64,000 nucleotides of DNA, taken from Haliclona indistincta (lineage: Eukaryota; Porifera; Demospongiae; Haplosclerida; Chalinidae). Shown here piece after piece: positions 6,785-62,874 of this stretch. A model generated the notes under the pieces. The model worked only from the letters and a program-made list of their open reading frames with translations, ran no database searches and was not told the DNA's origin. The DNA lies in contig OZ024783.1 in NCBI GenBank assembly GCA_964017065.1, positions 2,626,559-2,690,558 of the forward strand. The letters are read 5' to 3'. How positions within the stretch are numbered: position 1 is the stretch's first letter; the number at the start of each line of letters is the position of its first letter. The translations under genes were made by a program, and so were the position numbers.

Positions 6785-6972
6785 AAAGCACTTCATGATG
6801 TTGGAACATGAAGTAGTCTAGTACTGTAGTATGTGTAATGAAAATTGTAAGGTAGGCATCAAATTTTATCAGGTAACCTGATAAATTTTTGAAGAGCCTG
6901 GACAACAATTTTTCCATTCTTGACAATACGAGAAAGCAGCCTAACCTCCCATATGAGAGCTTTCTTTTGTCT

Positions 6973-7022
<50 letters not shown>

Positions 7023-8337
7023 CCTACACTACTAGTGATTATATATCATACACACACACACCCACACACACACACACACATTGAGAGAATATTTTTAAAT
7101 GATTATTTTCAGACTCACCTGAAGGTAAAGACTGGTTTGGTCAAGGCTTGCTGGCTGGAGCAAGGAGCATCAGAGAGACGAGGAGACAAGAGTTCTACAG
7201 ATAAGATAAACACTTGCAACAGTACAGCTGACGACCAGTGAATGTATATCGGCTGAGTCAAACTATGCATACCTAGTGTGATGGAGCAGAATGAGGGAGG
7301 ACCAACTACGAACTCGACATATTTCACGAGACAATACTCTTGAGGCTGAAGAAGAAGACCAAAAGGCAGTAGGAGACAGGGCTCACAGGAGTACTGACTG
7401 TGCCTTCCACTGCAGGTGTGGGCAGTCTCTAGTGAGCAGTGAGACACAGTCAGCAACAGATTAGCAACTCACGCTCAGAGTTAATTCCTCACAGGGCATC
7501 TGCTGGTCTGCGCTCCATGATGGAGATATTTTGCTCTTTTGTACAGCATCACGATACAGCTGGTGACCCTGATAGAAATACACCACCTGGAGAGAGACCA
7601 CACCCACTGAAGTGACTCATAAGATACTCACTGTACTCACAATATCACCAACTTGAGGAAAGTAAGGTGAGGAACAAGGCTTGGTTGACATCAACCATTG
7701 AGACGGACGGTAGGCTGCAAGATTCTCCTGAAAAAAAGAATGAAGTCATCTTTGCAGTAACATAAATGAAGTCACCTTAAACTATGTACTATTAAAATAT
7801 TTTGCAACACCGCAAAAATATGGTGGTCGTTCAAATTTGGCAATTTTTTTTAAAGATTCAATAACTACATTGTAAAATAATTATTTTAACACCCCAAAAT
7901 TTTTCTGGTATGGACAAATTATGATCAAATAAAAAAAATCACACACAATGGGTACCTGGTCTCGTGCTGGGGAGTACTAGCTGTGTCAAGACTGGGCAGC
8001 ACTGGTTGGGTAAAGACTATACTTCTAACTCTCTGTAGACAGAAGTGCACAAAAGACTTTAATAACTTTCCATTACATGAGCTTACTTGTAACAATCCAC
8101 AATACTTGAACTACTGGAAGATGGACTGTGAAGAAAATAGAGCATTTGTACATGATTTAGTATACAAGATACTGACGTACATTGTGTTCTGTCCTTTCTC
8201 ATTTGAGTCACTGTTTCGCGTGTCAGAGAGTGCATTGTCAGCTGGTTCTGTATCAGGTAAGGTGCTTCCACTGGACAGAGAACACTCTGTTGCAGTACTT
8301 CTAGTGACTACAAGTTCCTTCCTGGATATAGCTTTGT
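6785..8337 (-). pseudogene. PHIP/BRWD-like Tudor-bromodomain cassette A (degraded)
   Basis: Exons on the minus strand match, in order and often in exact length, the gene at 51.5-55.3 kb. They are linker exons 8181-8337 and 8087-8125; 7641-7727 (87 nt, AAYRPSQWLMSTKP with YFPQVGD); 7473-7586 (114 nt, VVYFYQGHQLYRDA); 7273-7345 (73 nt, VEFVVGPPSFCSITL); 7119-7146 (TKPVFTF); then a bromodomain half-exon 6878-6970 (KALIWEVRLL) and a short piece near 6790-6815. These are hallmarks of the PHIP/BRWD cryptic Tudor region. The Tudor core exon and the first half of the bromodomain are missing, and the bromodomain exon lacks 33 nt internally. It follows a Death-domain exon rather than WD40 repeats. Confidence 0.7.
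6977..7019. repeat. (GA)n microsatellite at a splice acceptor
   Basis: About 20 GA units. Read on the minus strand this is the polypyrimidine tract of the acceptor ccatcag at the bromodomain half-exon. A short CA-rich run follows at 7050-7080. Confidence 0.9.
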
Positions 8338-8566
8338 CTACAGTAGAGAAAAGTGAGGGTTAGTTAGAACTACTAGATAGAACAACAGTTCACCACATTA
8401 TAGACTTCAGTGACTTCAAGTGTGTGTGTATATAGACAAACTATGATACATATCACACGAGAAGAAATATCTACCAAGCACTTTTGTAAGGCTATCTTTG
8501 TGAATACCAGCTGCTTAATTAGTGCTGTATATTAAAATGAGGAACAGCATTCTCATCCATTCATAC

Positions 8567-8899
8567 CTGCACATGCATCATTGATGGGTGTGGCTAGGTC
8601 TCCTGGTAGATCAGCATCACTGATACACTCAGCAAGAGATGACCAAGTACGTGGAACAGCTGAATCATTGGGATCTCTGTCATCACGTGACAACCAGTCG
8701 TCCAGGACCCTCCGAACAAACTCGTTCTTGTCTTTGCATTCCTTCTGATACCTTCTCACTAGATCATCATCCTTCAAGAGCATGTGAGCTAGGTCCGTGC
8801 ACTGCCATTGTTCCAATGATGAGATCCATCGAATAACTCTCAGAGAAGACCCATCAGGTTTCTTGAGAAGAAGGAGCTGATCATAAGAGGGTCTGTCAG
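8567..8899 (-). CDS. Death-domain exon joined to cassette A
   Basis: Exon of 333 nt, phase 1 at both ends (acceptor ccggcag at 8899, donor GCAG|gtatgaat at 8567). The translation contains VIRWISSLEQWQCTDLAHML, then NEFVRRVLDDWLSRDD, then PRTWSSLAECISDADLPGDL, a well-formed Death domain with the late Trp-Leu pattern. It differs clearly from the NLR-1/NLR-4 Death domain. The next exons downstream on this strand encode PHIP/BRWD-like Tudor sequence, so the locus looks like a Death-Tudor-bromodomain chimera, probably decayed. Confidence 0.8.
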
Positions 8900-8950
8900 C
8901 TGCCGGAGAGGAATAGAGAAGCTCAACTTTGTAAAAATCACTTCACTCAC

Positions 8951-15427: not shown

Positions 15428-15719
15428 CACATGTGGACCTCAGCTTGCCACAGAGGTGCTGCATTGAACTGTCCTTCTCTAGTGCTTCCATAAAATTGTG
15501 GTAGTTGCTGGGGTCTAGTCGGATTGTTGTTTCTGTTGCAACTAGTAGCTCTGTCACTTTCTGTTCTCTCAGTGTTAGCTCATTAATCTTGTCTCTTGTG
15601 TGACGTGACAGTAGACCAGCAGAGTACAGTCTCGCTGCCAGTGGGGCGGGGCTCCTGATGTTTTCTAACAGGTCAGCATAATGCCCCTGGAACGAGCGGT
15701 ACTCAGCGCTCTCGGTCTC
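15428..15719 (-). CDS. NLR-2 CARD exon
   Basis: About 97 residues with the CARD pattern: FQGHYADLLENIRSPAPLAA, LYSAGLLSRHTRDKINEL, KVTELLVATETTIRLDPSNY, then FMEALEKDSSMQHLCGKL. CARDs mediate homotypic recruitment of adaptors and caspases. The acceptor is tgttcag at 15720; the donor ATGTG|gtgagt is phase 1. No leader exon was identified upstream, so the true start is unknown. Confidence 0.8.
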
Positions 15720-16370
15720 CTGAACAGCAGACGAAGGTTACAGACAAGTATTAATTATTATACTACATACAACAATACAGCTATGGACTGATTCAGCTAA
15801 AGAAACAGTCTTACCTGATCTGCACAAGACGCCATAACTGTCAACAAAACGAGCCACACCTTTCAACGAGCAATGAATCTGATTATCTAGTGCATTTGAC
15901 CTGTTGATAGAATTTCACACAATATGTGATAGTACAGAATATTTTACTCAATACCAAACAGTGCATTGGTGTTAGTGTCTATTGTGAGAATGCATAATAT
16001 AGTGGGTTTTGGAAGCCTTGCTGTGTAGCTGCATTGCCATGGCGATGAGTTGGTTCCCCTTGTCACTAGCTGGCTTACCTTGCAGAAGGCATGGCATCTA
16101 AACAATGACATGACAGCATCATAGTATGCAGCCAATGAATAATACTACACCAAATGTAAACAATTGGTAATGTTTTAGATTTCATTTTAAAATAATAACC
16201 ACAAAATGAAGTATTATTAATATTTGATGGTTGGTTTGACTGTTCTACCAGTTCGTGTAGTGACAATGTGTGATACTCGTGGAATAACCTCATCTTCTTC
16301 ATCCTCTAACTAATCATCTTCCTCATCATCTGACATGCTCAATCGTCTGAGTCTCTTTGACGCTGACCTA
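15720..16370. other. Intergenic between NLR-2 CARD and cassette B
   Basis: No supported gene. Small frames here have no recognisable domain. Confidence 0.5.
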
Positions 16371-16374
16371 GTCA

Positions 16375-18125
16375 CTACCCTGCCCCGCCCCCTTCCTGAT
16401 CATCATATCGTCTCTTCTGCTGTGATCTACTCCTAGTGGTCACACGTCTTCTGACCACGCCCACCTCCTCCTCCTCAATGGACAGTTCGTCTCTGCTCTC
16501 AGATTCATCGTTCGAGGAGAGTTCTTCAGTCGAGGTTGATAGTCCGTTCATTATCAAACTGCTCATTATGTCTGCAGTGCTGCGAGAAGATGATCTTAGT
16601 CTAGATGGGATCTGTGGAGTGGATTCCGCTAGAATACCGAGGGTTCGAATTCGTCTGGTGCCATAGACTGGTCTGCTGTCCTCAGATTGACATGATTTCA
16701 GGAACTCCAGTACCTTGATCTCGAACAACGCTTGAAGAGACTTAGCCATCTTGTAGACCTGTGAGGAGGAAACACCAAATTATACATGTAAGTTAACGAT
16801 TATTAGTATGTAAAATTTTATCACACATTGTGCAAGTGCAATTGGTTCTAATTTCTGTGGGCATTTTCTAAAGTACTATACTGAGATATGCAAGAGTATA
16901 CTGGGATGTACAAGAGTATACTGAGACATGAAATAGTATACTGGAATATAAAAGAGTATACTGAGATGATGTGCAATAGTACACTGGGATGTACAAGAGA
17001 ATACAGGGATGTACAAGAGAATACAGGGATGTACAAGGGTATACTGGGATGTGCAAGAGTATACTGAGATACATGTGAAAGAGTATACTGAGATGTGCAA
17101 CAGTATACTGAGATGTGCAACAGTATACTGAGATGTGCAATAGTACACTGGGATGTACAAGAGAATAACAGGATGTACAAGAGAATACAGGGATGTACAA
17201 GAGTATGCAAACCTGCGATTTGTGTTGATTGTACTCTTTAGCGTTAGTAAAGATCAGTCTAACATCATCAATGAGCTCTCTTGGCACTCGATAGTGACCC
17301 TCAGAGAGCTTCTGACGAACTAGACTAAGATCCATCGGACAACAAACAACCAATGGATAGTCCTGAGAGAGAGAAAGTGAAAGAGAGGGAGGGAGAGAGA
17401 GAGAGAATTCGAAAGTGAGTGGCTGAGTGATGACTCTATTTACTCACTGGACATGTTTCTGTGTCCACTGGTTTCAGGAAAGGAGGTGAGTTTTCGTTTT
17501 GACAGAGATTGTCCAACAACTGCACAGCAGCATCAAACCAGAGCTGAGGAGGATAGAGAGAGAGGTGCCAGTGAGTGAGGGAGTGAGTGAGAGAGTGAGT
17601 GAGTGAGTGAGTTACTAACCAGTTGGTCTCTGTTGTTCACAAGCTCATCTTGCTCGACCTCCATCTTCTCCTCTTCTGCTTCTTCCCTACGATCCATCAG
17701 ATTTTGTAGTCGCTGCAGAACCAAACTCACTCATTACCTTACACATGAGGCATGAAGTTATCAACCTTTGATTTTCTCTTCACGGGTGAGGATGGTGCTA
17801 TCTTTGTCTCAGTTGGAGCAGTGAACAGTTCCTCTGCTTCAACCAGTTCGACCTCCGGAGCAATGACCTCTGTGGGAAGGTCATCATCGGCTACAGAAAG
17901 GTCAGGACGATAACACTCCATTATATTGTTACACGAAGGAGTCCTGTAAGAACAAAAATTGGTAAAATTTTAAACAGGATATCAATTTTGATGGGCGACC
18001 TGATAAATTTTAGCAATTTTTGTACAATAATTTTTCCATGCTTGACAATGAGACTAGTTTCTTCGTTGTAAGACAGTGCATTACAAGCCAACAACACAAC
18101 CTCCCAGATGAGAGCTATCTTCCGT
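16375..18125 (-). CDS. PHIP/BRWD-like bromodomain gene, cassette B (5' incomplete)
   Basis: Six clean exons: 18000-18125 (second half of a bromodomain, ALIWEVVLLACNALSYNEE), 17745-17943 (IMECYRPDL, acidic linker, SSPVKRKSKVD), 17620-17712, 17448-17543 (WFDAAVQLLDNL, PPFLKPVD), 17213-17362 (CPMDLSLVRQKL, IDDVRLIFTNAKEYN: bromodomain 2 with the conserved Asn) and 16375-16758 (VYKMAKSLQALFEI, then a Ser/Glu/Arg-rich tail). This matches the C-terminal half of PHIP/BRWD proteins, which read acetylated chromatin. WD40, Tudor and the first bromodomain half are absent upstream, where a GA microsatellite and mobile elements lie. It may be a partial duplicate or have an undetected start. Confidence 0.75.
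16865..17208. repeat. Minisatellite in cassette B intron
   Basis: About 18 diverged units of ~19-20 bp of the type gatgtacaagagtatactg, wholly within the last intron of the bromodomain gene. Long minus-strand frames through it are translation of the repeat, not genes. Confidence 0.9.
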
Positions 18126-28800: not shown

Positions 28801-29000
28801 NNNNNNNNNNNNNNNNNNNNNNNNNNNNNNNNNNNNNNNNNNNNNNNNNNNNNNNNNNNNNNNNNNNNNNNNNNNNNNNNNNNNNNNNNNNNNNNNNNNN
28901 NNNNNNNNNNNNNNNNNNNNNNNNNNNNNNNNNNNNNNNNNNNNNNNNNNNNNNNNNNNNNNNNNNNNNNNNNNNNNNNNNNNNNNNNNNNNNNNNNNNN
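28801..29000. other. Assembly gap (200 N)
   Basis: Run of undetermined bases next to a long GAAA microsatellite, which probably caused the gap. Continuity across it is not shown by the sequence. Confidence 1.
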
Positions 29001-39699: not shown

Positions 39700-40500
39700 T
39701 CTGATTCTGACTCCCTAAATCAGAAGAAAATCAAAGGTTTGGTTGTTTTAATTAAACTGTATTTTGCTCTTCGCGGAAGCAGGAAGTGGTAAGACATGCA
39801 TGGTGACCAGATCACAGTAAAACGAGAGAAAAGTGGAGAGTTATCAATGATTGAATTATTCATGACTAGCATGTTGTTGTATTGGGGGTTTCCCTGGGAA
39901 ACCCCCTAAAGGCAAAACTTGCCGCGCGCTTCAATGGCGGTAAGCTGTGCAAATCAAAGCTGTACTCCTTGCAGGCTGTAGCAGCCACAAAGTGTGATCC
40001 TTGCCTTGTTTTGAAGGTTTATTACGATTCAGCTTGAAACGGTTGACGCTTTTAGATTGCAAGAAGTGGCGAAACCGCTGTTAGACTATACCTAATATGT
40101 CGGTTCAGGACGCAGCACCCGGCTGAAGCCAGCACCACATTCGCCAGCACCACATTCGTAGAAGCCGTACATCAACATTTTTGTGGTTAGTGGTACATAC
40201 GAGCTCAATTACGAAGACGCAGTTAGCGCAGCCACTGCGCTCGACGTCATCGAGTCTCGAGGCTAGACTAGCCGCCATGCAGAGCAGTCAGAGAGCAGCG
40301 GGCCAGCGCCTGTGAGTCAGTACTAGACTATACCTGTACAGCATGTAGGCCTATTGGTAGCTAGTGCTCTATTCTCTGCCAGCGTCTCAAGTTATCCACT
40401 GTACATTTGTAACTTGTCACGCTGCTTATTGTTACTTACTGGGTGTGGCACTGAATCAGTGACTCGACTATGCAATATAACTGACCTATTTCTACATGTG
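39700..40500. other. Intergenic before the satellite
   Basis: No gene seen. The start is shared (inverted) with 6540-6780, and the gggtttccctgggaaacccc-type segment resembles 6.45 kb. Confidence 0.45.
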
Positions 40501-43500
40501 AGTTCCTTCTAGAGGTGCATTTCAAATCTCATTTTCTATCTTTCTAAGTGTTTCCTGGACCCAGCAATATAAGAGTTTGAACATTGATATTTACCGATAA
40601 CGACACACTCCGCATTATTGCTGGGTGTGGCAAAGACTGACCAATTTCTACATGTGAGTTTCTTCTAGAGGTACATGTGCAGATGTCAAATCTCATTTTC
40701 TATCCTTCTAGGTGTTTCCTGGACCCAGCAATAAGAGTTTGTACGCTGATTTTACCGATAACAGCACACTCCGCCTTATTGCTGGGCGTGGCAATGACTG
40801 ATCAATTTCTACATGTGAGTTCCTTCTAGAGGTACATGTGCAGATGTCAAATCTCATTTTCTATTCTTCTAGGTGTTTCCTACACCCAGCAATAAGAGTT
40901 TGTACGTTGATATTTACCGATAACGACACACTCTGCCTTATTGCTGGGCGTGGCAATGACTGATCAATTTCTACATGTGAGTTCCTTCTAGAGGTACATG
41001 TGCAGATGTCAAATCTCATTTTCTATCCTTCTAGGTGTTTCCTGGACCCAGCAATAAGAGTTTGTACGTTGATATTTACCGATAACGACACACTCTGCCT
41101 TATTGCTGGGCGTGGCAATGACTGATCAATTTCTACATGTGAATTCCTTCTAGAGGTACATGTGCAGATGTCAAATCTCATTTTCTATACTTCTAGCTGT
41201 TTCCTGGACCCAGCAATAAGAATTTGTACGTTGATTTTACCGATAACAGCACACTCCGCCTTATTGCTGGGCGTGGCAATGACTGATCAATTTCTACATG
41301 TGAGTTCCTTCTAGAGGTACATGTGCAGATATCAAATCTCATTTTCTATCCTTCTAAGTGTTTCCTGGACCCAGCAATAAGAGTTTGTACGTTGATTTTA
41401 CCGATAACAGCACACTCCGCCTTATTGCTGGGCGTGGCAATGACTGATCAATTTCTACATGTGAGTTCCTTCTAGAGGTACATGTGCAGATGTCAAATCT
41501 CATTTTCTATCCTTCTAGGTGTTTCCTGGACCCAGCAATAAGAATTTGTACGTTGATTTTACCGATAACAGCACACTCTGCCTTATTGCTGGGCGTGGCA
41601 ATGACTGATCAATTTCTACATGTGAGTTCCTTCTAGAGGTACATGTGCAGATGTCAAATCTCATTTTCTATTCTTCTAGGTGTTTCCTACACCCAGCAAT
41701 AAGAGTTTGTACGTTGATATTTACCGATAACGACACACTCTGCCTTATTGCTGGGCGTGGCAATGACTGATCAATTTCTACATGTGAGTTCCTTCTAGAG
41801 GTACATGTGCAGATGTCAAATCTCATTTTCTATCCTTCTAGGTGTTTCCTGGACCCAGCAATAAGAGTTTGTACGTTGATATTTACCGATAACGACACAC
41901 TCTGCCTTATTGCTGGGCGTGGCAATGACTGATCAATTTCTACATGTGAATTCCTTCTAGAGGTACATGTGCAGATGTCAAATCTCATTTTCTATACTTC
42001 TAGCTGTTTCCTGGACCCAGCAATAAGAATTTGTACGTTGATTTTACCGATAACAGCACATTCTGCCTTATTGCTGGGCGTGGCAATGACTGATCAATTT
42101 CTACATGTGAGTTCCTTCTAGAGGTACATGTGCTGATGTCAAATCTCATTTTCTATTCTTCTAGGTGTTTCCTAGACCCAGCAATAAGAGTTTGTACGTT
42201 GATATTTACCGATAACGACACACTCTGCCTTATTGCTGGGCGTGGCAATGACTGATCAATTTCTACATGTGAGTTCCTTCTAGAGGTACATGTGCAGATG
42301 TCAAATCTCATTTTCTATTCTTCTAGGTGTTTCCTGGACCCAGCAATAAGAATTTGTACGTTGATTTTACCGATAACAGCACACTCCGCCTTATTGCTGG
42401 GCGTGGCAATGACTGATCAATTTCTACATGTGAGTTCCTTCTAGAGGTACATGTGCAGATGTCAAATCTCATTTTCTATCCTTCTAGGTGTTTCCTGGAC
42501 CCAGCAATAAGAGTTTGTACGTTGATTTTACCGATAACAGCACACTCCGCCTTATTGCTGGGCGTGGCAATGACTGATCAATTTCTACATGTGAGTTCCT
42601 TCTAGAGGTACATGTGCAGATGTCAAATCTCATTTTCTATTCTTCTAGGTGTTTCCTAGACCCAGCAATAAGAGTTTGTACGTTGATATTTACCGATAAC
42701 GACACTCTGCCTTATTGCTGGGCGTGGCAATGACTGATCAATTTCTACATGTGAGTTCCTTCTAGAGGTACATGTGCAGATGTCAAATCTCATTTTCTAT
42801 TCTTCTAGGTGTTTCCTAGACCCAGCAATAAGAGTTTGTACGTTGATTTTACCGATAACAGCACACTCTGCCTTATTGCTGGGTGTGGCAATGACTGATC
42901 AATTTCTACATGTGAGTTCCTTCTAGAGGTACATGTGCAGATGTCAAATCTCATTTTCTATCCTTCTAGGTGTTTCCTGGACCCAGCAATAAGCTTTTGG
43001 ACGTTGATATTACTGATAACAACACACTCCGCCTTATTGCTGGGCGTGGCAATGACTGATCAATTTCTACATGTGAGTTCCTTCTAGAGGTACATGTGCA
43101 GATGTCAAATCTCATTTTCTATTCTTCTAGGTGTTTCCTAGACCCAGCAATAAGAGTTTGTACGTTGATATTTACCGATAACGACACTCTGCCTTATTGC
43201 TGGGCGTGGCAATGACTGATCAATTTCTACATGTGAGTTCCTTCTAGAGGTACATGTGCAGATGTCAAATCTCATTTTCTATTCTTCTAGGTGTTTCCTA
43301 GACCCAGCAATAAGAGTTTGTACGTTGATTTTACCGATAACAGCACACTCTGCCTTATTGCTGGGTGTGGCAATGACTGATCAATTTCTACATGTGAGTT
43401 CCTTCTAGAGGTACATGTGCAGATGTCAAATCTCATTTTCTATCCTTCTAGGTGTTTCCTGGACCCAGCAATAAGCTTTTGGACGTTGATATTACTGATA

Positions 43501-43615
43501 ACAACACACTCCGCCTTATTGCTGGGTGTGGCAATGACTGACCAATTTCTACACGTGAGTTCCTTCTAGAGGTGCATGTGCAGATGTCAAATCTCATTTT
43601 CTATCCTTCTAGATG
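40500..43615 (+). repeat. Satellite array 1 (~161-bp units, about 19 copies)
   Basis: Head-to-tail units of 160-162 bp. Each contains CCCAGCAATAAG and its complement CTTATTGCTGGG about 45 bp apart, then a spacer with caatttctacatgtgagttc and tcaaatctcattttctat. Variants change along the array: the innermost units (43.0-43.6 kb) carry aagcttttggacgttgat. Confidence 0.95.
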
Positions 43616-44360
43616 GGTTTGCTGTTTGGACTGTGCAATTAACCTACGAATTACAACACACATGTACTGTATATTTATGCAGAAATCATGTAACATGAAC
43701 AAGCTAGAACCTTCAGCCAAAATTGTTTGCATAATTGTGTGATCCTCTGGTGTTGAATTCATGTAAAAAGTAATTATTATTGTTGTGTTAATGGGTTTAT
43801 GAAAAATATGAGACCGGGTTAAACATTAAAGCACGTGTTGTGTATCAGTTCAATTCAGCTGCAACACTGATCATTGATGTGGTATAGAATGTACAGTATA
43901 CTACAGTCTTGTTTCACAATCAATGGTAAGCTGCTTCAGAAGAAGCAAAAAAGAGGAAACTATTGATTTATGTGCAATAAGTGTGGCCATACCTGATGCA
44001 AGTTCATGTGTTAGCTGCAACGTATTAAATATGTCCCATGGACATATACTCAAAGTTAGGATAAGTTCCAATAAAGGTCTCATAAATCCACTTGGCACTT
44101 TCATATGCTGGATCATATGATCATAATTATGCTGGATCACTTTCATATGCTGGATCAATTCCATCATACAACTCTTGGATTCATTAATTTTGTCAAGTAT
44201 TCAGCAAGAGTACCTTTGGATTCATAAGCTGTTGCAGACTGATAATCAGCCAACAGATGCAACTTTGTTATTGGTATTCCTGTGTGCATGCATGAGGCAT
44301 TAAGTTCGTATAAGTTATAATAATTATGAATTGTTTAATTATGGTCATGCATGTATATAG

Positions 44361-45870
44361 GTAAAGGTGATGGTAGTAACGATTTAAAGCCGTACTGCAG
44401 TAATGATGCAGAGGAAGGACTGCAGATACTTGAAAATCGGCAACTTGAGAACCTACAGGTGCATGCAAGGAGGTTAAAATGAACAAAATTAATATGCATA
44501 CACGCATGTTTGCATACACATACAGGAATTTCCAGGATCCACTGAAATGTTTTCTACCAAACTGAAGCTAACAGGAACATATTCCCATTGCACTGAGGTT
44601 GTGCATGATCATGATATTATAGTTCTATTTTTGTGCATGCATCACACAGGTTTGAAATATTTCAGAGTTTGTCAGGCTGCTAATGTTTCAGAGATCATCA
44701 CAACCGAGTTCTCTAAACTCTATATCCATGCTGCAGGTATGCATGCATGCTATTTCGTCTTGACTTGTAATACGTATAATATTATTACATTGACATGTAG
44801 CAGATATAGGCAGTGCAGTCAACTCCTGGACATTAAGGGAGAGTTGCGCAACCTCGTATCAGAGAATAGAAGAAATACTACTAATGAGTTGTGATTGAGA
44901 AGTGAATGATGTTCTGTTGCAAGCTCAAGCATTTGCATGAATCGCTTTTTGTGCATTAATCTCAAGCTATGATGATTTTACATCATAGAAGAATGCTTAC
45001 ATTGTGCTTTATCACAAGCAACACTCAAATATAAGCTAAAACTGATGTGCATCCACTACATCAAATTCAGTTGTGATTCTTTATAGGTCTATCTACATAA
45101 TTTGAAGAGAATTGAACCATCATTAGTTGGAAGAAGTGTGAGTTACTGAAAGGCAAATAATCTACCAATACAGCGCTATTATTGGTATACACGTACTGTA
45201 GCAATCTTGCTTTGGAGTAACAAAAGAAGAAGAGTATTTGGTGCTCATTATGATCTCTATTATAATTATTGTATTAGTAAATATTATGATGCATTGGCTA
45301 TGTAGGTACGGAGTAACCTCAGTCGTTTCCCAGAATTGTGTAGAAGTGTTAATATTAAAAATTTATACTCAGTTTGCTCACAAGTATAATTTGGGATGAT
45401 ACATTTTTGTTATAGAGAGTGGCATGCAGTGATAGTGATAGTGATGGTGGACTGTTGCCTATAACAAAATGGATCACAAGCCACAGCCACTCAACAAACC
45501 AAAAAGCATGTTCAGGTATGAAAGCATAGTACTATACTCATGCAGGAAAGGACATCACCTAGGATCAGTCAACACACCTGCAAAAGTATCTGGTCAGTGT
45601 AACATGTTATCATTTATTATTGTATAATACCTGCAGAGAAACGTGAACATTACAGAATCTCATGTACATTACAGAATCTCATGATCGGAATTACATTGAC
45701 CATACAGCTGTACATCGTCACCTAGTAAAGGTTCCGCATGCTCACTGCACATAATACAATATTGCAATCATAAACTGCAGAAAATGCATACGGTGGTATG
45801 GAGTCAGGCAGAATATCATTTGAGGATGACAACTTTGAGCTATTTGAACCATACAGGGAGCTCATCTAAG
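44361..45870 (+). CDS. Possible multi-exon gene of unknown function
   Basis: Several segments bounded by plausible splice sites read open: 44361-44458 (DGSNDLKPYCSNDAEEGLQI), 44525-44602 (GSTEMFSTKLKLTGTYSH), about 44650-44735 (LKYFRVCQAANVSEIITTEF), 44805-44894, around 45420-45514 (DSDSDGGLLPITKW) and 45780-45868 (GRISFEDDNFELFEPYRELI, stop). Phases between some pieces do not fit with the borders I chose, and I recognise no domain. It could equally be a remnant of a transposon gene, given its place between the satellite arrays. Confidence 0.3.
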
Positions 45871-45988
45871 TTATCATCCTCACATGTATACTTATTATAA
45901 AAATTTATTTATTTTTATTGAGCAAAAGCAATAATAGATAATGAAGCAGATGAAAAGTTATAGTACAAAATGGAATGTGATACAAACC

Positions 45989-46420
45989 CTATCTAGCTAA
46001 CATAAGGTGAGGAGCAGAGCCAAGGGAACCCATGACAGAGGCAGCATTTCCTCGTTGAACAGCAACTGACATTCTTTGTAGTATGTGGACTGTGGCCTCT
46101 TCTTCCCCCGTTGCTTGGGTCAACCGACGTCCAAGATCTTTAATGAAACAGAAGTTCATAGTAGCAGGTCCCAGAACTCCACTAGTCTCAACTGCCACAA
46201 ATGTAAAGCAAGCAATAGGACGAGGTCAAGTTTGAATACTTAATTTTCTTTCTTTCTTCCGCTGCTGCAGCCACAGCTCCCGCCTGCCAAATGTAGGTAT
46301 GAAGGTGCAAATGTGTCTGTCACAGTAGCATCCCAAACCAGATGTTTTCCACTTTTCCAAGGAACAGATGTGATACCATCAGAACGCTTCCCATCAGTTC
46401 GACTGACACCTACAGGTTTA
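45989..46420 (-). pseudogene. Retroelement C-terminal relic
   Basis: Minus-strand reading with frame changes: KRSDGITSVPWKSGKHLVWD, then VTDTFAPSYLHL, then VAVETSGVLGP, IKDLGRRLTQATGE and QRMSVAVQRGNAAS. The spacing of D...WDATV...AP resembles a PD-(D/E)xK-like nuclease motif of retroelement C-termini. This is a recollection of the pattern, not a search result. A related relic is at 10.08-10.21 kb. Confidence 0.45.
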
Positions 46421-47064
46421 ATAATAATTTATAATAATAAATAATTTATTAATAATATTAATTTATTATTTGCACACAATGCATGGTGCTTTTGTCTCCA
46501 GACAAGGATACACTTCCAAATCAAGTATTACAACCAGTGTTTAGCGGCAATGCTGATTTAGTCGACAATTCCCTCTTTGCAACAAGCAAATTTTCAAGAA
46601 GAGATCTCTGGATCAACTGCTTTCCCAGAAAGGAAAGGCCATCAGATGAGTCAGTTTGTTAGTGGATGTATGTTAAAATTCTTCCAATATTTTCAGTGAA
46701 TGCCTGTCAGTTTAAGCGAGATTTTATTAGAATTAATGTAAAAAATCAGAGAAGAAGTTGCTATCATAATTGTAATCATAATAATACATATACATGCAGC
46801 CAAAACTACGGAAGATTGTATCGGGACTAGTTAGGAAAGTTTTTTTAGACTAATTGTTCGAGTTTCTTGTGGTGCAGCGGATATGTGGCCACTTCAACTA
46901 ATAATGTGGCCACAACTAATAATGTGGCCACTATGTGGCCACTTCACCTGTCCACTAATAAATTATGTGCTATTTCCGGAGGCAAGACTTTCAATAATCG
47001 GAATGTATGACTTGTTATTGTATGCTTTTGTAATTGTGCAGGCAATGAAATGTCTAATTTCAAT

Positions 47065-47195
47065 TATGTATAAAATGAGATTTGACATCTGCACATGCAC
47101 CTCTAGAAGAAACTCACATGTAGAAATTGGTCAGTTATTTCCACACCCAGCAATAAGGCGGAGTGTGTTGTGCTATCAGTAAAATTAATATCAAC
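47065..47195 (-). repeat. Isolated satellite unit
   Basis: One unit in the orientation of array 2, separated from it by ~850 bp. It contains cacacccagcaataaggcgg. Confidence 0.85.
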
Positions 47196-48050
47196 GTACA
47201 AAATCTTATCAAAATCTGAAGAAGCTGCTTACTTTGTTTGTAAAACAGGTATGTATATTATTACTCATGCATCACTTATTGATAATCACCACTGCATTAT
47301 GTTGAATATACATGTACTACTTGATATAATTCAAATATCAGGCTCCATATTATTACGAACTCTATATTAACTTACCTGTGTGACTCAAAGGTCATTCTAC
47401 TGTCACATTAATAATAATGCATCCGTTACATTTACAAGTATATAAACCAGGACAGTTTATAGTCTGTCAAAAGCTATACCCATGCATTACTGTAACATTA
47501 ATACTTAAACTCTTATAAGTGACGTGCATGCACAATCACACTAGTCCACTGGACTGCCTGCATAGTCCACTGGACTGCCTGCATACCACAATATTGCATA
47601 CCGTATAATTATCAAATGCACATTATCATTCGCATAAGCTCTAGATCTATGAGTATAGTACTAGTTTAGCTATAGTTATAGCCAGTCATTATCATAATGC
47701 ATACTCAAAAGACCCACATAATGAACTTTAGAAACATAATAGTACTCCTCATTATTACTCAACATAATTATATACAAAAAGCAGCCATAATAGTACACAC
47801 TTATAGTATTCTGCATGCCATCCACTATTTTAGGCAGAGCTAAATGGCTGCAGTTACCATAATGATAATTTATCATGCTTAATAAGCTACGTTGCACTGA
47901 TGAGGACCAGAAAGTCTGAAGCAGATGATTCAGTATTTATATTAGTTGTCTGTCTGCAGCTGCAACAGTTTAGAACAAGTTTGCACAATCCATAATATAT
48001 AATCGAAAAATTAGATTGATTCAGTGCATAAAATAGGAAATAGTTAAAAG

Positions 48051-50665
48051 AAGACATGTAGAAATTGGTCAGTCATTGCCACACCCAGCAATAAGGCGGA
48101 GTGTGTTGTTATCGGTAATATCAACGTCCAAAAGCTTATTGCTGGGTCCAGGAAACACCTAGAAGGCTAGAAAATGAGATTTGACATCTGCACATGCACC
48201 TCTAGAAGAAACTCACATGTAGAAATTGGTCAGTCATTGCCACACCCAGCAATAAGGCGGAGTGTGTTGTTATCGGTAATATCAACGTCCAAAAGCTTAT
48301 TGCTGGGTCCAGGAAACACCTAGAAGGATAGAAAATGAGATTTGACATCTGCACATGTACCTCTAGAAGGAACTCACATGTAGAAATTGGTCAGTCATTG
48401 CCACACCCAGCAATAAGGCGGAGTGTGTTGTTATCGGTAATATCAACGTCCAAAAGCTTATTGCTGGGTCCAGGAAACACCTAGAAGGCTAGAAAATGAG
48501 ATTTGACATCTGCACATGCACCTCTAGAAGAAACTCACATGTAGAAATTGGTCAGTCATTGCCACACCCAGCAATAAGGCGGAGTGTGTTGTTATCGGTA
48601 ATATCAACGTCCAAAAGCTTATTGCTGGGTCCAGGAAACACCTAGAAGGCTAGAAAATGAGATTTGACATCTGCACATGCACCTCTAGAAGAAACTCACA
48701 TGTAGAAATTGGTCAGTCATTGCCACACCCAGCAATAAGGCGGAGTGTGTTGTTATCGGTAATATCAACGTCCAAAAGCTTATTGCTGGGTCCAGGAAAC
48801 ACCTAGAAGGCTAGAAAATGAGATTTGACATCTGCACATGCACCTCTAGAAGAAACTCACATGTAGAAATTGGTCAGTCATTGCCACACCCAGCAATAAG
48901 GTGGAGTGTGTTGTTATCGGTAATATCAACGTCCAAAAGCTTATTGCTGGGTCCAGGAAACACCTAGAAGGCTAGAAAATGAGATTTGACATCTGCACAT
49001 GTACCTCTAGAAGAAACTCACATGTAGAAATTGGTCAGTCATTGCCACACCCAGCAATAAGGCGGAGTGTGTTGTTATCGGTAATATCAACGTCCAAAAG
49101 CTTATTGCTGGGTCCAGGAAACACCTAGAAGGCTAGAAAATGAGATTTGACATCTGCACATGCACCTCTAGAAGAAACTCACATGTAGAAATTGGTCAGT
49201 CATTGCCACACCCAGCAATAAGGTGGAGTGTGTTGTTATCGGTAATATCAACGTCCAAAAGCTTATTGCTGGGTCCAGGAAACACCTAGAAGGCTAGAAA
49301 ATGAGATTTGACATCTGCACATGTACCTCTAGAAGAAACTCACATGTAGAAATTGGTCAGTCATTGCCACACCCAGCAATAAGGCGGAGTGTGTTGTTAT
49401 CGGTAATATCAACGTCCAAAAGCTTATTGCTGGGTCCAGGAAACACCTAGAAGGCTAGAAAATGAGATTTGACATCTGCACATGCACCTCTAGAAGGAAC
49501 TCACATGTAGAAATTGGTCAGTCATTGCCACACCCAGCAATAAGGCGGAGTGCGTTGTTATCGGTAATATCAACGTCCAAAAGCTTATTGCTGGGTCCAG
49601 GAAACACCTAGAAGGCTAGAAAATGAGATTTGACATCTGCACATGCACCTCTAGAAGAAACTCACATGTAGAAATTGGTCAGTCATTGCCACACCCAGCA
49701 ATAAGGCGGAGTGCGTTGTTATCGGTAATATCAACGTCCAAAAGCTTATTGCTGGGTCCAGGAAACACCTAGAAGGCTAGAAAATGAGATTTGACATCTG
49801 CACATGCACCTCTAGAAGAAACTCACATGTAGAAATTGGTCAGTCATTGCCACACCCAGCAATAAGGCGGAGTGTGTTGTTATCGGTAATATCAACGTCC
49901 AAAAGCTTATTGCTGGGTCCTGGAAACACCTAGAAGGATAGAAAATGAGATTTGACATCTGCACATGCACCTCTAGAAGAAACTCACATGTAGAAATTGG
50001 TCAGTTATTGCCACGCCCAGCAATAAAGCGGAGCGTGCTGTTATGGCTAAATTTCAACGTACAAACTCTTATTGCTGGGTCCAGGAAACACCTAGAAGGA
50101 TAGAAAATGAGATTTGACATCTGCACATGTACCTCTAGAAGAAACTCACATGTAGAAGTTGATCAGTCATTGCCACGCCCAGCAATAAGGCAGAGTGTGC
50201 TGTTATCGGTAAAATCAATGTACAAATTCTTATTGCTGGGTCCAGGAAACACCTAGAAGAATAGAAAATGAGATTTGACATCTGCACATGTACCTCTAGA
50301 AGGAACTCACATGTAGAAATTGATCAGTCATTGCCACGCCCAGCAATAAGGCAGAGTGTGTCGTTATCGGTAAATATCAACGTACAAAATCTTATTGCTG
50401 GGTCCAGGAAACACCTAGAAGAATAGAAAATGAGATTTGACATCTGCACATGTACCTCTAGAAGAAACTCACATGTAGAAGTTGATCAGTCATTGCCACG
50501 CCCAGCAATAAGGCGGAGTGTGTCGTTATCGGTAAATATCAACGTACAAAATCTTATTGCTGGGTCTAGGAAACACCTAGAAGGATAGAAAATGAGATTT
50601 GACATCTGCACATGTACCTCTAGAAGAAACTCACATGTAGAAGTTGATCAGTCATTGCCACGCCC
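48051..50665 (-). repeat. Satellite array 2 (inverted, about 16 copies)
   Basis: Same ~161-bp unit as array 1 in the opposite orientation. The first ~12 units are nearly identical (gtccaaaagcttattgctgg). The outer four resemble the outer units of array 1. Confidence 0.95.
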
Positions 50666-50901
50666 ACATTGAAAGTGAAAATAATAAAAATAATAGCTAG
50701 GGAGAAATCAGTAGTTAAACAAATAAACTGCTGGATTATTTAATTTTTTTCTATACAGCAAGTAGATACTGACTCACTGTGAGTGCTGCTTCACTTCTTA
50801 GTTGGCGTACCTAGCTCCTTAGTGCTTGCGCGTCCATTGTATTATACTATTCTGGATGCGTACACGGAGCGCACAATTAGTGTATGTGATATCACAACTC
50901 A

Positions 50902-53900
50902 ATGTACGACATGTACATTCTTGTGGTTTCTAATGAATGTGGTGCTGGCGAATGTGGTGCTGGCTTCAGCCGGGTGGACGCAGCCGTTGTCAATAAGGCG
51001 TTCCGAAAACATTATGCAGTTCTTTTGGAAACGATCGATAATCCTACTATATTAGCAGCGAGACTCTACTCGGATGATGTACTGTCAAGACACACAAGAG
51101 ACAAGATTAATGAGCTAACACTGACAGAACAGAAAGTGACTGAGCTACTAGTCGCGACAGAAAAAACAATCCGACTAGACCCCAGCAACTACCACAAGTT
51201 TGTGGAAGCACTAGAGAAGGAGAGTTCAATGCAGCACCTCTGTGGCAAGCTGAGGTCCACATGTGGTGAGTGTGATAATGTGTGTCTGAGCACATCCACT
51301 GACCAGTGCATGGTGTTCTGATGTAGCTCAACTCAAGTCACTGCACACTCCTCAACTGGTGTCGTCCCTACCACCAAACACATCAGCTGGTGAGTAGAGA
51401 ATGTGTGTATGGTGGAATAACATGTGACAGTGTCTTACAGCACAACAGACCAATGATAGTATGATACCATCCTCCATCACCTCTTCATCTCATTCAAGCT
51501 CAACAGGTATAAACTCGGTCACTATTGACAAAAATTATTTGTTTTGGTGATGTCCTCTTTAGATTCAGTAACTGGTCTTTCTCTGCGTAGTGGACGTACT
51601 CTGGCCGATCCAGTGGTTGACCCTGAGAGTGATTCTGGTGAAATGGAAGACGATATGCTAAGGTGACTGCATGTTCACTATCAGTACTTTTTTAGTCAGT
51701 GTATTTTACAGCACAGCTTTTAGCGATTCGAACACTGATGATTTTGACAGCTATTATTCAGATGAGTGGGTTGATGTGATTAAAATAGTCATAATGGTTC
51801 ATTCAAAATTTTCTTCAGAGATTATTCTTATGCTTCATTAGAGGATAGAAGTATGGACAGCGAGGAAGAGACAGAGGAAAGAAGAAAACGGAGCATGAGT
51901 TCAGATGAGCAAGATGAACCAATGGCGAAAAGATTACCTTTCTTTGTAAGCCAGACATCTACCTGTATAAATTTAGAAGAGTGATTACTTTAATTAAGAT
52001 ATATTATTTTGTGCGTTTTTTTACGAGGAATGTGTTATGGAGATTTCTAGATTTCATTACCACTGCATGTGTGTAGCATGCCTATTTAACTAGTTTGTAA
52101 ATTAAACACATCTGTAACCAATAGTATACATGCATGTTTTTTCCTTGTCCAGGGAGATATCACAGCCTACTGGCCGTCTGATTGGTTGACATCAACTAAA
52201 CCACGCCCCTTACCTTACTTCCCTCAAGTTGGTGATAATGTAAGTACGTGTCATTGTGGTTCATAACCTTTGGTGGGTGTGGTTTGTCTCGCAGGTAGTG
52301 TATTTTTGTCAAGGACATGAAATTTACTGTGATGCTGTCATTGACAATGAAGTATACCAATGGGAAAATCAGCTAATGCCCTGGGAAAAATATGCGTTAA
52401 GACTGAAAGTATGTCTGCTCATTAAATTGTGTTTGTCAGATTTCTATGATACGTGATTTTGCAGGCCACTTGTCGCAGAAATCAATCGACTTATCCAGCC
52501 CCACAGAAAGTTGCTGAAAAGAAACGCTTGTACTATCGTGCATGCTGCTTTTGCTGGGTGAAGCTTGACTTTTGCAGTCAAAGCATAGACTATACTTGGT
52601 GATTTGAAAACGACAATAATACAAACGTTTCTTTATAGCGACTTTCTGTGATGCTGGATGAGTGGGTGTGGCCTCGTCGAATTGTTGTTTTCACTGCGAC
52701 AAGTGACCTGCAAAACCCTGTAATTGTTACTTTATGTAACCATGGCTCTGCCATCATGCTTTACATTGCGTGATGCATGACCAGATAATAATAATAGTAA
52801 TGTACTACTGTGTTTCAGCCTCAAGAATTCTGTCAAATAATGGACGTTGATTTCTTAGTTGGCCCACCAACTCTCTGCTGTATAAAATTAGGTAGGTGCA
52901 GTGAATGAGTAACTTGTATTTCACTCTTGAATGGGTTGCTGCTAACGCCTATAAGAGTGACTTATTCTGAATAGACGACTGCTTTTTTGACTACTTTCTC
53001 TGTTTTCATAATAGTGCTAACTAGAGATCAAGAAGTAACCTTCACATTTAAGTAAGCTATGATTCATTTCCTCTATTTCACTTTCTACTCAATGTACATA
53101 TGTCATATCACAGGTTCCATGATATGGATAATGTATTGAACTTCATTATTCTCGAACAAGTCTACAAGGACAGTCTCAAGCGACAGTGGTCGTCTGGAGA
53201 CCGGTTCCAGAGCTTCATAGACGACCAGTATTGGTCTGGAACCATCCTGAAGCAGAGTCCATTCTCAAAGTGCATTCGGAATAGTGTATGGCAGTCATAC
53301 CTTGTTTTATGGGAGAGTGGAGGTACAGATCGACTCAATCCTTGGGAGCTTCATCCACCGGAGATAAATGGTGATAAAGATTTTAATGTTAATGATCGCA
53401 ATGAGAGGTTGAACATGTATCTTGCTCACTGTGCTCTATACCATATTTTCACTATAAAACACCTGTTTAGAATTGTTTCCGGGTCTCTAATTAACGTCGG
53501 GTGTGGAATAAGTATATAAAAAATTATAAGCAATAGTAACTACATTGTAGGTTAGGCATTGAATGAGTACGCTCTTAGATAAGCTTCCTAATCATCACTG
53601 GCCCTCTAGCCACTTCTATTTTCAAAGCATTCAGAAAACTTGGAAGTTAGTGTTGACACTCCAATCTCCTATCTGCATAATTTGTGTATTTTCTTTATGT
53701 TTAAGTACTTCTGGTGATGCCCAAGAGTATATAATAAGAAGAGTGTCGAACATAGCATATACCCACATACAAGAACTGTGTATAAAGTAATGTGACACGC
53801 ACGTGAGCTGAATGACGCTGAATCCTGCCGCTCCATAGGCGTGCAGTCAGTGCGGATCGATGGCTGTACTAACGCGGGCTCAACAATGACGTCTGATACT

Positions 53901-55309
53901 TGGCCACATCCCCTCGCAAACGTAAGCAGATGACATTATACTAACAAATTATGGACCCATTTACGGCAATTGCTCGAGTGCCTGTTATGTTACTTTATAC
54001 ACAGTTCTTGTACGCGGTTATGCTACGTTCGACGCTCTTATATACTCTTGGTGCTAAGTGTATATGAATCAAATTTTCTGAAGCTGTAGATGTTTTCTTC
54101 AAAAGAGGACATAATTTTTGATATCACCTCATACAGTATAGCGGGAAATTTTCGTGGAAGAAAATTTTCACGAATGCGTGACATAAAGCATTTCGCAAAT
54201 AATATTTTTGCGAATCAGCGCTATTGGCCTGTCTTTATCAACTAAAACAAGACATTTGCGGATAAATTTTTTTGCAAATAATTGTAGCCTGAAATTCACG
54301 AAATTAATTTTCCGCTATATGATATTTCTTTTGATGTTAGTTTAAGTGGGTGCAGTTTCCTCATTTTGATGCTAGTATTTACATGTACCTCCTATCCTCC
54401 TAGTATGATAGTATTTACCTTGATTGCTCAGAGATTATTGTTCTCTCCTTTTCTCAAGTCTTCCTATCAGAGGATTTACTCTCGGCATGGAACAGAGGGA
54501 GAGAGAAAGAACGAATTCTTAGAGGACTCTATGCTATTTTGGACGGAGAATTACAAGAAGCCAAAATGTTTTTAAAACCAGTGAATCTTTTTATGGAGCC
54601 AGCATATTGTGCAGCAGTGGCATTTCCAACAAGTGTATCAACGATAGCTGAGAGATTAAGAAATGGGTTTTACAGGTAACATTGAAAGTTCATAACTTGA
54701 GAGTACAGCATATTGGTAACGTAGAATCCCTTGTCTGAATTAATTCTTCTCATAGGAGTAAAAAAGCCCTCATTTGGGAAGTTGAACAACTGTATCTCAA
54801 TGCTTTGGCATACAATGAGGAAGACAGTCCCATTGTGAAGAATGGAGAAACTTTCGTTAAGACACTCATAAATTTTATCAGGTTCTCATCAAAATAATTG
54901 TTGATGCATAAAATTATAATAGTTTGTTGTATAACATGCAGGATGCCATCATGTGCTAGTATTATGGAGTGTTATGAAAAGAGATTCTGTAATTATTCAA
55001 TAAATGTAAGTTCACTAAGTTGTACTTCATAATGAATCTTACAATTATTTTTAAGAGCAGGAGGTGACGGAATATGGATTACAGAGAAGAAGACGAATCA
55101 ATTATTTTCATAATGCTCCGTCCAGATCTGAATCAACAAGATATGGAAAAATGAATGAATTCGTAGATGAAGAATGTGAGGAAGAAGTAGATGTGGCAAA
55201 ACTTCTCCGAAAGATGAAGAAAAAGATGAAACTAACTAGAGTGACTAGTAATTCAAGTGCTGATAATCTTTCTGTTGATGTAGTTGTTACGATCACACGG
55301 CATACATGA
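50902..55309 (+). CDS. CARD - cryptic Tudor - bromodomain chimeric gene
   Basis: Seventeen exons with GT-AG borders and consistent phases, ending TGA 55309. CARD: 50902-51265 (FRKHYAVLLETIDN, DPSNYHKFVEALEKESSMQH). NLR linker exons: 51327-51389 and 51441-51506. Acidic Ser-rich linker: 51563-51662, 51712-51765, 51819-51945 (ends with basic KRLPFF). PHIP/BRWD-type cryptic Tudor: 52153-52239 (WPSDWLTSTKP), 52295-52408, 52465-52557, 52639-52719, 52819-52891 (FLVGPPTLCCIKL), 53015-53051, 53114-53370 (FHDMDNVLNF, SSGDRFQSFIDDQYWSGTIL). Bromodomain: 54471-54675 (AVAFPTSVSTIAERLRNGFY), 54756-54881 (ALIWEVEQLYLNALAYNEED, conserved Asn). Tail: 54942-55005 and 55061-55309, with an acidic-basic segment. 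No WD40 and no second bromodomain. CARD mediates adaptor assembly; the Tudor and bromodomain read histone marks in PHIP. The first exon start is uncertain. Confidence 0.8.
53716..54052. mobile_element. MITE with ~78-bp inverted repeats, in a Tudor-bromodomain intron
   Basis: Ends CCAAGAGTATATAA... and its complement, with tacaagaactgtgtataaag in both arms. It lies within the intron 53371-54470. Confidence 0.8.
54136..54325. mobile_element. Short MITE, ATAGCGGGAAATTTTCGTG termini
   Basis: Inverted ends atagcgggaaattttcgtgg and cacgaaattaattttccgct enclose about 150 bp with further short inverted motifs (ttcgcaaataa/tttgcgaat). Same intron as the preceding element. Confidence 0.7.
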
Positions 55310-55435: not shown

Positions 55436-55590
55436 TAGCTTCTACCACACATCCAAGAACAAAATAAGCATCTGTTAAAACCATGATGATTACGACGTTT
55501 GAACTGAATATGTGCACAATATGATTTCTTCTACAATATGATTTCTTCTTTCAGTGTGTATAGTAGCAGTTTACTATGACGTTAATGTGA
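55436..55590 (+). pseudogene. NLR C-terminus relic downstream of the chimeric gene
   Basis: Sequence ccacacatccaagaac...tctgttaaaaccat...tttgaactgaatatgtgcac...ttctttcagtgtgta is the same strand and order as the last codons and 3' flank of NLR-2/NLR-3 (HIHEQYKHLLKP, then ELNDE). It starts about 130 bp after the stop of the CARD-Tudor-bromodomain gene. The NACHT and LRR parts are absent. Confidence 0.75.

Positions 55591-57288: not shown

Positions 57289-62874
<5,586 letters not shown>

Follow-up and report, generated by a model that had tools for sequence, protein, structure and literature searches.

In the genome of the demosponge Haliclona indistincta, a single open coding path of 15 predicted exons joins a CARD of the NLR type to a PHIP/BRWD-like chromatin reader, and comparison with neighbouring genes supports a chimera whose origin can be traced. 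The fusion of CARD and reader, as put forward in a preliminary description of this DNA, is thereby supported; that account has to be amended in that the locus is a member of an array, that a transposon breaks into its 5' end and that part of its CARD seems to have been overwritten by gene conversion. We give a probability of roughly 0.55 to the reading that this is a host gene in which a BRWD/PHIP-like body took the place of a CARD-NLR gene's NACHT-LRR exon, yielding a chromatin-tethered NLR partner or decoy, and that the present allele is transposon-interrupted.

Exon structure and domain composition

The coding path extends from 50,977 to 55,309 on the forward strand of the window, i.e., the whole stretch of 64,000 nucleotides analysed (C1:2,626,559-2,690,558, within a searched genome of 144 Mb and 46 contigs, whose genes mark it as that of an animal). 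All junctions are GT-AG, and the 15 exons show neither stops nor frameshifts nor loss of a splice site; they encode in order a CARD, two short linkers, an acidic stretch, a PHIP/BRWD-type cryptic-Tudor region, BRWD_AD and one bromodomain. The CARD is contained in the host part of exon 1 (50977..51265) and is followed by two NLR-type linker exons (51327..51389 and 51441..51506), the second of which ends in phase 1. Intron 3 (51507..51562) harbours the fusion boundary, being NLR-derived up to ~51529 and unrelated beyond. Exon 4 (51563..51662) forms the phase-1 entry into the BRWD-like body and encodes acidic linker, which continues in exon 5 (51712..51765) and the acidic/basic exon 6 (51819..51945). 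The cryptic-Tudor region comprises exons 7 to 9 (52153..52239, 52295..52408 and 52819..52891), exon 10 (53015..53051) precedes the BRWD_AD exon 11 (53114..53370), and the bromodomain is divided between exon 12 (54459..54675, starting at 54459 or 54471) and exon 13 (54756..54881, starting at 54756 or 54759). Exon 14 (54942..55005) leads to exon 15 (55058..55309), which carries the C-terminal tail and the stop; a second bromodomain is absent from this exon and was not found anywhere 3' of 54881 within the window.

Earlier, 17 exons with compatible phases and no intervening stop had been counted. The frame is indeed open across the join, but the number falls to 15, as the paralogue L041 splices directly from the exon matching 52295-52408 to that matching 52819-52891. 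Since it thus passes over the place of 52,409-52,818, the open stretches at ~52465-52599 and ~52639-52770 are likely surplus exons. Chance is an unlikely cause of the open frame, because the junctions match those of paralogues and dN/dS is ~0.2 in the body and the unconverted CARD codons. Of 8000 scored candidates, none reached E <= 1e-3 with a 637-aa spliced query; this says little, as these candidates were picked by shared words.

The CARD expected in the first exon matches the Pfam CARD profile below its cut-off (E 0.0085 and 0.004 in two scans; 17.6 bits for the window copy, cut-off 23.9) and is borne out by the predicted structure, a six-helix death fold with CARD-like packing that matches CARDs. 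Among its relatives, 26 of 45 match Pfam CARD at E <= 0.1 (best 2.3e-5), and one, P0032, is annotated as PF00619 in the database. The following two exons had rightly been taken for NLR-type linkers, their position and phase being those found in adjacent CARD-NLR genes. Likewise, the acidic linker and Tudor region hold, their exons being homologous to BRWD-like paralogues; the cryptic-Tudor call draws on likeness to the BRWD-like genes of the array and on the family motif. The assignment as a BRWD-type reader with one bromodomain is confirmed by Pfam matches of BRWD_AD (E 3.1e-22, 78.5 bits, cut-off 40) and of the first-half bromodomain exon (E 8.7e-6, 26.1 bits, cut-off 21.7), the second-half exon reaching E 0.015 and 15.7 bits, alone below the cut-off. 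In the bromodomain, an Asn was seen by eye at the YN position.

Upstream of the acidic linker, where the exons are CARD and linkers, no WD40 was found in the hybrid, and WD40 blades are present in other array copies. Nor does a NACHT domain follow the CARD: the body stands in the NACHT-LRR place and only an NLR 3' remnant is left. SAND and PHD gave no Pfam match in seven exon segments of the hybrid, which were scanned singly.

Constraint, probable gene conversion and the transposon

Compared with seven other copies, the body has a dS of 0.81-0.99 and a dN/dS of 0.18-0.27, with some single exons saturated at synonymous sites; a three-way estimate for the window body branch gave dS ~0.58 and dN ~0.12 (dN/dS ~0.21). 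For CARD codons 1-30, dS was 1.0-2.0 and dN/dS 0.12-0.26 (seven comparisons), and for codons 31-88 dN/dS was 0.38-1.19, with too few changes to reveal constraint. Judged from their codons, CARD and body have long been under protein-level constraint; this presumably acted on the fused protein, and the codon constraint may also predate the fusion. The remaining CARD exon, introns 1-2 and the linkers are far nearer to the adjacent NLRs, with dS down to 0.03, and from ~51,179 onward the NLR genes are equally similar to one another. The near-identity to adjacent CARD-NLRs at 51089..51510 (forward strand), which covers CARD helices 3-6, introns 1-2 and the linker exons, probably reflects a gene-conversion tract that overwrote part of the CARD. 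Introns 1-2 and linker exons of the CARD-NLR genes themselves (L041 6370-6560 and relatives) are near-invariant between most paralogues compared, as if gene conversion had homogenised them, intron included.

The start codon previously placed at 50902 does not belong to the host. This ATG and the next 24 codons (50902..50976 on the forward strand, the first 25 codons of the earlier model) are the end of a transposable element of ~10.9 kb with terminal inverted repeats (40116..50976), which has inserted where the CARD exon begins. It is flanked by a 7-bp target-site duplication, GACGCAG, on the left (40109..40115) and its counterpart on the right (50977..50983), which forms the CARD exon's first codons on the forward strand. 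The right end recurs in at least seven other copies (197 bp or more) with 95-99% identity, which suggests that the insertion is young relative to the constraint; six of these copies stop at query base 309-310. Elsewhere in the genome, the termini recur as inverted pairs ~5-20 kb apart, and 161-bp satellite arrays lie inside the element near both ends in opposite orientation. As the transposon separates any native promoter and start from the CARD, the allele may be silent or start within the element. The left transposon flank contains an ATG whose frame continues over the duplicated site into the CARD. The ENA protein record P0001, from a contig of 28,244 bases, shares both the transposon-derived start and the CARD, which makes a private error unlikely unless it rests on the same data. 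P0001 ends RSTMW versus RSTCG at the window locus, so that this end is not independently confirmed.

The most serious rival explanation, a substantial if lesser prospect, regards the locus as a decaying relic, i.e., an old or recent recombinant of a fast-rearranging NLR/BRWD array that was killed by the transposon and makes no protein. The position of the element at the first CARD codons, the same start in P0001 and stops in several sister copies all agree with this. Nevertheless, 15 exons without stop, frameshift or splice-site loss and the low dN/dS of the body branch (~0.21) and of CARD codons 1-30 (0.12-0.26) argue against it, as does the similarity of the transposon's right end to its other copies, suggesting an insertion young against the constraint.

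Origin of the fusion

In L041, located 0.26 Mb from the window locus, a BRWD-like gene with its stop is followed ~0.3 kb downstream by a CARD-NACHT-LRR gene, which opens with its own short first exon. The window locus aligns to this NLR gene from 50,999 to ~51,529 and is BRWD-like from within intron 3. NLR-derived boundary pieces outside the probable conversion tract have diverged further than the tract itself: within the segment 51,509-51,529, 3-5 of 21 positions mismatch six of the eight genes compared, versus 15-16 of 21 for the other two. Past the body, a remnant of a CARD-NLR 3' end (last codons and 3' UTR; 55437..55584, forward strand) was recognised by comparison with NLR genes; the branch of this tail is ~0.19. 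With NLR sequence on both flanks, the body accordingly occupies the former NACHT-LRR place. The divergence pattern is most simply read as an old fusion on which conversion acted later, though a recent fusion onto an old CARD fragment may be an alternative history.

Separate BRWD-like and CARD-NLR genes, as in L041 with the CARD-NLR downstream, could also suggest that two genes lie at the locus, a truncated piece of a CARD-NLR gene and a BRWD-like one starting past 51.5 kb. In agreement with this, for 12 of 28 BRWD_AD copies the matches listed include a CARD no more than 9 kb downstream and on the same strand. Two genes are nevertheless improbable: the body's first exon requires an upstream phase-1 exon, in whose place the Death versions described below supply an NLR-type module, and the NLR 3' tail is located past the body. 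Even less credible is an assembly artefact fusing two array copies, since, despite N runs and near-identical copies in the array and an N run from C1:2690559 just beyond the window's right end (8.7 kb past the locus), no N run lies within the locus, the join is an intron boundary, and, among the eight copies compared, none has diverged further than this body (dS 0.81-0.99 to the seven others), making collapse with one of these unlikely.

Comparison with known systems and proposed mechanism

The hybrid is like BRWD/PHIP proteins (BRWD1, PHIP/BRWD2 and BRWD3) in its cryptic-Tudor region, BRWD_AD, bromodomain and acidic linker and in their order. Canonical members feature WD40 repeats and two bromodomains, whereas the hybrid lacks WD40, has a single bromodomain and begins with an NLR CARD, and is therefore not classed as a member. 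Plant NLRs with integrated domains carry foreign domains in an NLR frame; there, a domain is added, whereas in the hybrid the sensor core is replaced. Sponge NLRC (CARD-NACHT-LRR) and NLRD (Death-NACHT-LRR) categories are described for Dysidea avara in a paper whose main text does not contain the word bromodomain (PMC12909245). Local genes of these types are the source of the hybrid's CARD and linkers and of the Death modules; they carry NACHT and LRR, and the hybrid has neither.

The statement that no CARD-Tudor-bromodomain family is described agrees with the literature searched, where no published CARD- or Death-BRWD fusion was found. It has to be qualified in that proteins combining CARD and bromodomain are already known, namely SP100, SP110 and SP140, the SP100 family possessing CARD/HSR with SAND, PHD and bromodomain (PMC4548144). 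SP100/SP140 and the hybrid share a CARD/HSR fold and a bromodomain on one chain (a predicted spliced chain here), a likeness that does not imply descent. SP100/SP110/SP140/SP140L and the AIRE family have SAND and PHD without the cryptic Tudor and BRWD_AD of the hybrid, and the two are apparently convergent.

For the favoured host gene, the phase-1 body entry would allow CARD and linkers to be spliced in frame to acidic linker, Tudor region, BRWD_AD and bromodomain. The CARD may assemble with the CARDs of adjacent NLRs, to which gene conversion would keep its helices 3-6 near-identical. BRWD3/PHIP read H3K4 methylation and acetylation (PMC10523488), and by analogy the Tudor-bromodomain part could dock on H3K4-methylated, acetylated chromatin. 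The hybrid protein would thus be a chromatin-tethered partner or decoy for NLR assemblies, and an immune signal could be coupled to chromatin. Should the hybrids be expressed, an early-branching animal would have arrived independently at the SP100/SP140 logic, in which a histone reader carries an inflammasome-type assembly domain, and how NLR assemblies reach chromatin would become testable. Phase-1 exon swapping and gene conversion are moreover a candidate route for NLR clusters to new immune proteins.

The array and the Death-domain counterparts

The array at C1:2.50-3.07 Mb contains BRWD-like and CARD-NACHT-LRR genes. Those BRWD-like genes that were read show 95-100% protein identity, two bromodomains and the last WD40 blades; earlier blades are represented by one WD40 match, at C1:2864762 (L044). 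A genome profile search gave no BRWD_AD match outside the array. The window locus is the CARD variant in a local group of hybrids between death-fold modules and BRWD-like bodies; in several of the group the module is a Death domain of the NLR type. Four copies have Death exons with a phase-1 end and five have body entry exons in phase 1: Death and entry exons occur together twice in L043, at C1:2557900-2561500 and at ~7.3-10.7 kb of the window, the entry exon only at C1:2725500-2728600. The Death fold of these modules was counted in favour of the hybrid set, and the Death module stands before NACHT elsewhere in the genome, among the matches listed. The Death version at L043 45-4508 (C1:3054545-3059008) is an open 11-exon model with a 2A-like leader (DIEKNPGP), Death, acidic stretch, cryptic-Tudor region, BRWD_AD and bromodomain, and is perhaps the better gene for study. 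An intact 2A leader precedes two copies of the Death hybrids; N-terminal 2A sequences are known in sea-urchin NLRs (PMC4981915). A wider reading, which we hold as tentative and rather doubtful, is that the only detected BRWD_AD lineage became a multigene immune family, in which NLR death-folds (Death in several copies, CARD at the window locus) are spliced to cryptic-Tudor/bromodomain readers within the array that also houses the NLRs. Gene conversion would keep the assembly surface of the hybrid matched to these NLRs, and the result would be a chromatin-bound arm of NLR signalling with an origin independent of vertebrate SP140.

The adjacency count given above used all 28 of 28 BRWD_AD matches and 34 CARD entries from 35 of 148 matches (C1, in or near the array). 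The corresponding Death set comprised 28 entries from the C1 matches (126 matches in all), with neighbouring pieces merged and one 22-residue and one overlapping match left out. A full module had both halves matched, at times as two pieces or with stops. The genome searches scored the best 150 of 235 candidates for CARD and the best 102 of 631 for Death before NACHT, so that genome counts are lower bounds.

A probable relic lies within the window at 6877-8942 (reverse strand), where a Death module with a degenerate 2A-like leader stands before exons for a BRWD-like Tudor region and bromodomain; this copy gave no BRWD_AD match. At 15429-18124 (reverse strand), a BRWD-like two-bromodomain fragment is followed by a CARD-NLR gene, in the order of L041. 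Upstream of two-bromodomain BRWD-like genes, a half Death exon occurs immediately 5' of WD40, e.g., at C1:2592655-2592855 (reverse strand), where its frame differs from that of WD40 and the copy contains a stop. The sole N run in the window (28801-29000) adjoins a partial CARD-NLR gene, and downstream of the locus, at 57289-58078 on the forward strand, open frames resemble SRCR repeats by eye.
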